From NCBI GenBank assembly GCA_018710785.1, contig DVJD01000116.1, positions 1 through 64,000 of the forward strand: a stretch of DNA of 64,000 bases. Direction: 5' to 3'. This stretch comes from Candidatus Fimimorpha excrementavium (GTDB lineage: Bacteria; Bacillota; Clostridia; Lachnospirales; Lachnospiraceae). The notes below the pieces were generated by a model. It was not told where the DNA came from and made no database searches. It worked only from the letters and a program-made list of their open reading frames with translations. The translations under genes were made by a program, and so were the position numbers. Each line of letters opens with the position of its first letter. Positions within the stretch are counted from its first letter, which is position 1. Positions 24,476 to 28,509 of this stretch are shown in pieces.

Positions 24476-25096
24476 TTGAAGACATTTAAAAAACCATTGA
24501 CGAGTGCCGAAGAAAGGGAATATCTGAAGCTGCTGAAGGAGGGTGACCAAACAGCGAGGGACATTTTAATCGAGCATAACATGCGGCTGGTGGCCCATAT
24601 CATAAAGAAATACGCATTTACGGATAAAGAAATGGACGATCTGCTCTCCATCGGTACGATAGGGCTGATCAAAGCAGTCAATACATTTAATCCGGACAGA
24701 GGGAATAAGCTGAGCAGTTACGCTGCCAAATGTATTGACAATGAGATTTTAATGCTTTTGCGGAGTGAAAAAAAACGAAGTCGGGAAGTGAGCTTATATG
24801 AACCGATTGGAACGGATAAAGAAGGCAATGAGATCAACCTGATGGATGTCATTGAAATGGATGAGCGGGAAATTTCTGAGCTGGTGGCCATGAAGGAAGA
24901 TCTGAAAAAACTATATGAGGCATATGAAACCTGTCTTTCTGATAAAGAAAAAAAGGTGATCCGGTTTCGGTATGGACTATTCGGAAGTGATGAATATACG
25001 CAGAGAGAAATTGCAAAGGCTCTGGGGATATCCAGATCCTACGTATCCAGAATAGAAAAGGGCGCGCTGGCAAAGATGAAGCGGTATATGCAGTAA
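24476..25096 (+). CDS. sigK: RNA polymerase sporulation sigma factor SigK (uninterrupted, TTG start)
   Basis: IEHNMRLVAHIIKKYAFTDKEMDDLLSIGTIGLIKAVNTFNPDRGNKLSSYAAKCIDNEILMLLR; C-terminal region 4 HTH YTQREIAKALGISRSYVSRIEKGAL. Confidence 0.92.
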   Translation: MKTFKKPLTSAEEREYLKLLKEGDQTARDILIEHNMRLVAHIIKKYAFTDKEMDDLLSIGTIGLIKAVNTFNPDRGNKLSSYAAKCIDNEILMLLRSEKKRSREVSLYEPIGTDKEGNEINLMDVIEMDEREISELVAMKEDLKKLYEAYETCLSDKEKKVIRFRYGLFGSDEYTQREIAKALGISRSYVSRIEKGALAKMKRYMQ

Positions 25097-26185: not shown

Positions 26186-26328
26186 TTTTTCTGCAGTCCG
26201 CTGAATATCACCGCTCTGCATGCGAGAGGGGAAGATTTGACGAATCGAACATATTTTCGAATAAGTCTTGCTTTTTAGGGAAAGCAATGGTATAATCAAA
26301 GAAACAAACGTATGTTCGGAGGCGAAGT

Positions 26329-27675
26329 ATGAGGATTGCAGAAAGTATGGCGCTGTCAGAGAAACTTAGAATTTTGGCAGATGCCGCCAAGTATGATGTG
26401 GCATGTACATCCAGCGGAGTTGAAAGGAAAGGCGTCAAGGGAGCGATTGGAAGCGCTGTGTCGGCCGGGATCTGTCACAGTTTTGCGGCGGATGGGCGGT
26501 GTATCTCCCTTCTTAAGATTTTGATGACGAATGAATGTATTTTTGACTGTAAGTACTGTGTAAACCGAATATCCCGGGATACCGAGCGGGCGACATTCAC
26601 ACCCGATGAGATCTGTACCCTGACCATGGAGTTTTATAAACGCAATTATATTGAAGGGCTTTTTTTGAGCTCGGGAGTTCTGAAGAATCCCACTTATACG
26701 ATGGAACTGATGTACGAAGTGCTGTATAAACTGCGCACCCAATATCACTTTAATGGATACATTCACGTGAAGGGGATACCGGGGGCGGCGCCGGAAGTGA
26801 TCCAGCAGATAGGATATCTGACGGACCGCATGAGCGTCAATCTGGAGCTGCCTACCTCAGAAGGGATGAGGCGTCTGACTCCGCAGAAGACGAGAAAAAC
26901 GATTTTGAAACCGATGCGTCAGATACAGCTGGGGATTCAGAATCAGAAAAAAGAATGGCCGGTACCTTCCCATGCCCCGTCGTTTGTTCCGGCAGGACAG
27001 AGTACCCAGATGATCATAGGCGCCACGCCGGAGAGCGACTTTCAGATCGTATCGGTGGCAGAAGCTTTGTATGCCAATTATGATTTAAAACGAGTATTTT
27101 ATTCCGCTTATATTCCCATGGTACAGGATGAGGCTCTTCCGGCTCTTCCGGGAGGTCCTCCGCTTCTTCGGGAGCATCGTCTGTATCAGGCAGACTGGCT
27201 GCTTCGGTATTATGGATTTCAGGCCAGGGAGCTTTTATCGGAAGAACGGCCGAATTTTAACATTTTTCTGGATCCAAAGTGCGATTGGGCCGTGCGGCAT
27301 CTGGAATATTTCCCAGTGGAAGTGGGATGGGCCAGCTATCGTACGCTGCTTCGGGTTCCGGGCATCGGAGTAAAAAGCGCTCAGAGGATTCTGCGGGCAA
27401 GGAAGATAGGAAAGCTGGATTTTCCGGCTTTAAAAAAGATGGGAGTCGTATTGAAACGCGCCCAGTATTTTATCACATGCAATGGAAAGATGATGCATCC
27501 CGTCCGCATGGAAGAAAATTATATCACAAATCAGCTGACCTATACCGAGCAAAAAAAGAACTGGGAAATTTCCAACACGTCCTCCTACCGGCAGCTGTCC
27601 CTTTTTGATGACCAGAGTCTGACCGCAGAACCGGCAGAGGAGGATGGATGGAAGGCATTGAGCGGGCAGATGTGA
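26329..27675 (+). CDS. Putative DNA modification/repair radical SAM protein (TIGR03916-like)
   Basis: CIFDCKYCVNR (CxxxCxxC), FLSSGVLKNPTYTMELMYEVLYKLR, C-terminal HhH LLRVPGIGVKSAQRILRARK. Confidence 0.9.
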   Translation: MRIAESMALSEKLRILADAAKYDVACTSSGVERKGVKGAIGSAVSAGICHSFAADGRCISLLKILMTNECIFDCKYCVNRISRDTERATFTPDEICTLTMEFYKRNYIEGLFLSSGVLKNPTYTMELMYEVLYKLRTQYHFNGYIHVKGIPGAAPEVIQQIGYLTDRMSVNLELPTSEGMRRLTPQKTRKTILKPMRQIQLGIQNQKKEWPVPSHAPSFVPAGQSTQMIIGATPESDFQIVSVAEALYANYDLKRVFYSAYIPMVQDEALPALPGGPPLLREHRLYQADWLLRYYGFQARELLSEERPNFNIFLDPKCDWAVRHLEYFPVEVGWASYRTLLRVPGIGVKSAQRILRARKIGKLDFPALKKMGVVLKRAQYFITCNGKMMHPVRMEENYITNQLTYTEQKKNWEISNTSSYRQLSLFDDQSLTAEPAEEDGWKALSGQM

Positions 27676-27729
27676 AAGAGAGGAAGACAGCTTTTCTGTG
27701 TAATATTGTGACGAAGAGAGGGAGAGAAG

Positions 27730-28509
27730 ATGCTGGTGCTTTTATGTGCGGATGATTTTGAAACGATTCTGTGCGGAATCTATGATGCGTGGTGCCAAAA
27801 AGATCACAGCCAGGTTCGCCTGGAACTTTTGGAAACCTGCCAGAGGGAATTATTCTGTGATTATCGGGAAGTGGAAAGAGAAGAGATAAAGGCAGAAAAA
27901 GTGATACGATCTGTCAAACGAACATTGTCGGAGGAATATTTTGGCCGCCTGTATCAGATTTATTTAAGCTGTGATCCGGAAAAAGCCGATATTATGTATC
28001 GCTTTTTAATAAAAGGATTCGCTTATGGAAGACGGGCCCTGGATATGCTGCAGGATCGGGATATGGCCCGCGCATTTGAACTGACGAGGTTTGTGGGGAA
28101 TGAAAGCCATTTCATCGTGGAATTTCTGCGGTTTGAGAAAATGCCAAACGGAATCTATGCCGCTAAGATTAATCCGAAGAATCATGTTCTGCCAACCATT
28201 GCCGATCATTTTTCTGACCGGCTGAATCCGGAAAATTTTCTGATTTATGATGAAAACCGCGGCGTGGCGGTGGTGCATCCGGCGGGAAAACCGTGGTTTC
28301 TTATGAAATTGAAGAAAGAGGAGTGGAGGTCCGTATTCCAAAAAATGGAAGGGGAACGGCAGGGAGATACCGATGGGAAGGAGGACTACAGAGACCTTTG
28401 GAAATTATTTGTGGATACCATTGCGGTGGAAGGACGAATCAATCCCAAACTGCAAAGGCAGATGCTGCCCTATCGCTATCGCGGACATATGCCGGAATTT
28501 GATCATTAA
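27730..28509 (+). CDS. TIGR03915-like putative DNA repair/metabolism protein (DUF4130)
   Basis: LLCADDFETILCGIYDAW, FIVEFLRFEKMPNGIYAAKINPKNHVLPTIADHFSDRLNPENFLIYDENRGVAVVH; immediately follows the radical SAM gene. Confidence 0.88.
   Translation: MLVLLCADDFETILCGIYDAWCQKDHSQVRLELLETCQRELFCDYREVEREEIKAEKVIRSVKRTLSEEYFGRLYQIYLSCDPEKADIMYRFLIKGFAYGRRALDMLQDRDMARAFELTRFVGNESHFIVEFLRFEKMPNGIYAAKINPKNHVLPTIADHFSDRLNPENFLIYDENRGVAVVHPAGKPWFLMKLKKEEWRSVFQKMEGERQGDTDGKEDYRDLWKLFVDTIAVEGRINPKLQRQMLPYRYRGHMPEFDH

Follow-up and report, generated by a model that had tools for sequence, protein, structure and literature searches.

The question raised by this locus is what a radical SAM protein and its DUF4130 partner do for the cell. 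Both genes lie in a 64,000-nucleotide stretch of DNA that was analysed as a whole (the window). A first-pass annotation had labelled them a predicted DNA repair/modification module of families TIGR03916 and TIGR03915, in a two-gene form without a uracil-DNA glycosylase (UDG) domain in the second protein. We consider it fairly probable that the pair is a DNA-damage-inducible repair operon, in which an SOS-induced radical SAM enzyme recruited by the sliding clamp would act on a DNA base lesion.

The family assignment was examined with profile searches. The first open reading frame matched the NCBIfam model TIGR03916 over model positions 1-415 with 691 bits (E = 5.8e-208, cut-off 343.5), the second matched TIGR03915 over positions 1-243 with 235 bits (E = 7.5e-70, cut-off 112.25). 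Because both matches are full-length and far above the curated cut-offs, the assignment is not a matter of chance, and the annotated coordinates and families were confirmed. TIGR03916, the radical-SAM/HhH family, is presumably COG4277. Pfam DUF4130 (PF13566) scored 161 bits in the second protein. NCBIfam and Pfam searches found no UDG domain there, in agreement with the two-gene form. On the first protein, Pfam Radical_SAM reached 29.1 and fell just short of its cut-off of 29.5; the helix-hairpin-helix (HhH) models of Pfam likewise scored under their cut-offs. As to membership the pair is ordinary and catalogued, while its conserved features make the role much more specific. Beyond the first-pass annotation these are LexA boxes, a C-terminal clamp motif and additional invariant cysteines (Table 1); none of the open papers searched was found to describe the clostridial LexA boxes, the Cys triad or the clamp motif. 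The annotation had also stated that the pair lacks an established chemistry. This was borne out by the single open-access paper found to name DUF4130, which only predicts a 'mutagenesis-related enzyme' and associates it with uracil-DNA glycosylases and radical SAM proteins (PMC3765255). Elsewhere in the window, at 24476-25096 (+), a sigma-K-like (sporulation) gene was identified by eye as a single uninterrupted open reading frame with a TTG start, flanked by scpB and a lysophospholipase-like gene.

Table 1. Features of the radical SAM-DUF4130 locus in window coordinates.
Feature	Position	Strand	Basis and remarks
LexA (SOS) box 1, CGAACATATTTTCG	26246..26259	+	one mismatch to CGAAC-N4-GTTCG
-10 hexamer TATAAT, between both LexA boxes	26291..26296	+	read directly; weak -35 TTGCTT at 26268-26273
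LexA (SOS) box 2, CAAACGTATGTTCG	26305..26318	+	adjoins ribosome-binding site GGAGG at 26318-26322
Radical SAM protein gene, TIGR03916	26329..27675	+	448 aa; ORF list, NCBIfam match, AlphaFold2 pLDDT 84.6
Extra Cys triad + His (C26, C49-H50, C58), candidate auxiliary metal site	26404..26502	+	117/117 homologues
Radical-SAM cluster motif CIFDCKYC (C70, C74, C77; CX3CX2C)	26536..26559	+	invariant in 117 homologues
Helix-hairpin-helix motif VPGIGVKSAQRIL, residues 343-355	27355..27393	+	Pfam (under cut-off), family profile vs 2duy
QLSLF, predicted beta-sliding-clamp-binding motif, residues 422-426	27592..27606	+	conservation, disordered tail, consensus match
Partner gene, TIGR03915 with DUF4130 domain	27730..28509	+	259 aa; NCBIfam, Pfam, AlphaFold2 pLDDT 92.1

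The cluster motif noted earlier is present at residues 70-77, and cleavage of SAM with radical activity is predicted for the TIGR03916 protein from its sequence. The four additional invariant residues are N-terminal to CX3CX2C, in a region modelled by AlphaFold2 with low confidence; a second metal centre formed by C26, C49, H50 and C58 is plausible in view of this conservation. Divergent paralogues in two genomes (G065 and G073) are devoid of the Cys triad and retain the cluster, the HhH motif and a QL-containing tail. A divergent clade of paralogues comprises loci L171 (2734-3894), L172 (2480-3853) and L123 (3668-5266), with absence of the triad seen in L171 and L172; in L123 the match to the model starts only at position 52, and this locus has no DUF4130 match.

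For neither protein did we find a close relative of solved structure. The profile of the radical SAM family reaches only HhH domains and the cluster region of HydG/HydE. The annotated HhH motif stands, because the profile matches the ComEA-related HhH protein 2duy with E = 3.9e-4. In a PDB fold search with the model the nearest solved folds were HydE, biotin synthase, lipoyl synthase and viperin. The first three, together with the three extra cysteines reminiscent of auxiliary-cluster enzymes, raise the alternative of a DNA modification enzyme, one that would add a normal modification to bases or edit it. Radical SAM enzymes are capable of alkylation or thiolation, and the NCBI name reads 'DNA modification/repair'. 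Yet damage-inducible control and clamp targeting (see below) are a better match to repair, the presence of the pair in 43 of 78 relatives is patchy, and the annotated regions show no restriction or defence neighbours. We thus regard a modification enzyme as decidedly unlikely; of the annotated 'repair/modification' module, the DNA-repair role is the likely part, whereas SOS control and the clamp motif make modification less so.

The first-pass annotation had drawn an analogy to spore photoproduct lyase (SPL; SplB, PF20903). SPL is likewise a radical SAM enzyme tied to DNA repair and SOS, which regulates it in some species, and the radical SAM protein associated with DUF4130 has been named 'SplB-like' (PMC3765255). 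An enzyme of the SPL type, i.e. one that directly reverses a UV thymine lesion, is nevertheless very improbable here. Comparison of the radical SAM profile with an SPL profile from relatives by hhalign gave a probability of 2%; the alignment covered 22 columns surrounding the cluster motif, outside of which there is no similarity. SPL was also missing from the best 50 PDB fold matches. The own genome has no match to PF20903, the pair is also present in lineages that do not sporulate (Acinetobacter, Bacteroides and alphaproteobacteria), and the protein carries the extra Cys triad. SPL is not known to have an HhH motif, a clamp tail or this triad. The analogy did not hold as drawn; by function the enzyme may still be analogous to SPL on another UV lesion.

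At its C-terminal end the radical SAM protein has a variable linker and, after it, the sequence QLSLF. The bacterial clamp-binding consensus is QL[S/D]LF, and in Bacillus subtilis PolC has a C-terminal QLSLF that binds DnaN (PMC12309361). Q422 was invariant in all 126 aligned homologues, and the five columns of the motif had entropies of 0-1 bit, whereas most of the linker columns before them lay at 2.3-3.8. The pattern occurred within the final 60 residues of 123 of the 126 homologues versus 9 of 832 background open reading frames. The three exceptions were the Bacteroides-type tails QLLLDF and QLILEF and one open reading frame without a tail. AlphaFold2 left residues 417-434 disordered (pLDDT <50). 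Across homologues the motif varies between the pentapeptide QLSLF and hexapeptides (QLSLGF, QMSLPL, QLLLDF), a switch common to the known clamp ligands, which use both QLSLF and QLSLPL (PMC12309361). Binding of the tail to DnaN is predicted on this conservation; the motif could instead serve another binding partner.

The promoter TATAAT of the radical SAM gene, which escaped a consensus promoter scan because its -35 element is weak, has a LexA box of the Gram-positive type on either side, both near the consensus. Across the 3.1-Mb genome the one-mismatch pattern matches 18 sites, and among those listed no second pair is spaced as closely. Boxes with up to two mismatches were found upstream of 93 of 116 homologue loci, usually in pairs, versus 19 of 322 control windows; with up to one mismatch the numbers were 56 of 116 and 2 of 322. 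The enrichment was weaker in Oscillospiraceae-type loci. The same type of box preceded the lexA genes of relatives in 11 of 11 cases with an anchorable promoter. In the own genome, AGAACATTTGTTCT is found upstream of uvrB and AGAACAAATGTTTG upstream of a dinB-like polymerase gene, both genes having been recognised from their sequences by eye. In genome-wide counts the loose pattern (61 sites vs 49 for the reversed control) was uninformative, and the strict one-mismatch pattern was rarer than its control (18 vs 43). The LexA signal therefore rests on pairing, position and conservation.

The operon is preceded by other box types in proteobacteria. All seven alphaproteobacterial operons carry GTTC-N7-GTTC or its complement about 80 bp or less from the start; there are only 8 such sites in 56 kb, 7 of which are those upstream of the radical SAM operons. 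The Caballeronia operon has CTGTATAAATATACAG upstream. The alpha- and betaproteobacterial versions have their own LexA box types, unlike the clostridial one, and three LexA dialects on one module are hard to explain by chance. Control by SOS has been reported for the COG1573-COG4277 operon in Bacteroidetes, and the same is cited for Verrucomicrobia and Alphaproteobacteria (PMC8565304); hence the extension to Clostridia is new here, not the principle.

No TIGR00498 match for lexA itself was obtained in the own genome (G000, a 98%-complete draft assembly), and its Peptidase_S24 matches were ruled out as LexA, being signal peptidases. As lexA scored over the cut-off in 60 of the 79 genomes of the set and in 5 of 7 from the same genus, and as uvrB and the dinB-like gene retain LexA boxes, the absence is probably an assembly gap. 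Two further loci were recorded. In genome G058 (L170: 1517-3019) the gene immediately upstream of the radical SAM gene encodes a LexA-like S24 peptidase C-terminus, with DUF4130 on another contig. The pair with LexA boxes is also present on a contig from human gut (L038), which was deposited as 'UNVERIFIED: Bacteriophage sp.' and may be bacterial DNA.

SOS control combined with a clamp motif is also a property of ImuB/DinB-type factors. The pair could accordingly be a mutasome accessory, bound to the clamp during SOS, that aids or regulates translesion synthesis by radical chemistry on the polymerase, the clamp or the nucleotide pool. The shared LexA box type of the dinB-like gene and the 'predicted mutagenesis-related' label of DUF4130 (PMC3765255) fit such a role. 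However, the HhH motif points to direct contact with DNA, fusion to a UdgX glycosylase to base chemistry, and a polymerase gene is absent from those radical SAM operons with annotation that were examined. We consider an accessory of this kind unlikely and retain base-lesion repair as the preferred reading.

Radical SAM protein and DUF4130 scored over their cut-offs in the identical 43 of 78 relatives' genomes, and the DUF4130 gene follows the radical SAM gene in nearly all loci; in G058 and G064 the two are on different contigs, yet co-occur. UdgX (TIGR03914) was over the cut-off in none of the 78. The alpha- and betaproteobacterial partner is a fusion protein, in which DUF4130 is joined to a TIGR03914 domain bearing the hallmarks of UdgX. 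From these distributions the shared function is that of radical SAM protein and DUF4130, with UdgX as an add-on. UdgX forms a stable covalent link to abasic sites (PMC10776899), and its fusion to the proteobacterial partner would be compatible with a radical SAM protein that undoes DNA-protein cross-links formed by the UdgX domain. Such a reversal cannot be the shared function, since the pair is found in 43 relatives and UdgX in none, and we hold it to be extremely improbable. The pair spans at least four phyla (Bacillota, Pseudomonadota, Bacteroidota and Fusobacteriota). E. coli genomes gave no match to it, and in Gemmatimonadota a divergent radical SAM relative was seen with no partner detected. 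In genome G032 (L173: 2769-3356) only the 3' half of the radical SAM gene is left, with a QLNLF tail and no DUF4130 match; here the pair decays together.

The DUF4130 partner is conserved to a mean column identity of 28% across the family. Its family profile matched no solved homologue, so any role proposed for it is tentative. DHH/RecJ proteins were the top matches of the model in the PDB and viral libraries, but these were weak (TM 0.34-0.40, rmsd >8). The catalytic His/Asp set of DHH/RecJ phosphoesterases is absent from DUF4130: of such residues only D174 is among the nearly invariant ones, and no His is invariant.

Taken together, the motifs suggest the following course of events. LexA would repress the operon via the two promoter-flanking boxes, and DNA damage would lift the repression. 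The QLSLF tail would dock on the beta sliding clamp and hold the radical SAM protein at replication or gap-filling sites, while its HhH motif would grip the DNA backbone. The [4Fe-4S] cluster would cleave S-adenosylmethionine to yield a 5'-deoxyadenosyl radical attacking the damaged base, which may be restored or converted into a form removable by other enzymes. C26, C49, H50 and C58 probably hold a second metal centre. DUF4130 appears to be an obligatory partner in view of the perfect co-occurrence, most likely for recognition of the lesion or of DNA. The UdgX-type uracil-DNA glycosylase carried by the proteobacterial partner points to a pyrimidine-derived lesion. Whether this amounts to a clamp-tethered radical SAM enzyme, possibly with two iron-sulphur clusters, that repairs DNA lesions at the replication fork or in its wake during SOS we regard as evenly balanced; no description of such a class was found in the open papers searched.

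With LexA control and a clamp motif that is nearly universal, a vague 'DNA repair function' becomes a set of testable predictions, and SOS control with a clamp tether suggests when and where this widespread radical SAM enzyme works. UdgX is a tool in uracil mapping and base editing. The findings also suggest that UdgX is one domain of a larger radical SAM-DUF4130 module in many bacteria. No open paper was found that treats UdgX and radical SAM together.

How does the clostridial pair compare with known systems? With the NCBIfam entries TIGR03916 (rSAM_link_UDG) and TIGR03915 (DUF4130) it is identical in membership, with the same full-length matches and gene order. HydE, biotin synthase and lipoyl synthase have the nearest barrel folds (TM normalised by target 0.46-0.54), but with 11-15% identity and no common substrate, and they are without DNA-binding or clamp parts. 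The cross-linking uracil-DNA glycosylase UdgX of Mycobacterium smegmatis shares its motifs GEQPGD and HPS, and in most cases the KRRxH loop, with the proteobacterial DUF4130 fusions, while it is absent from the clostridial partner. If COG4277 is the same family as TIGR03916, the COG1573-COG4277 operon shares with our pair a radical-SAM/HhH gene under LexA control (PMC8565304). The clostridial pair differs from it in having no COG1573 uracil-DNA glycosylase domain and in its Gram-positive LexA box, and Clostridia are outside the scope of that study.
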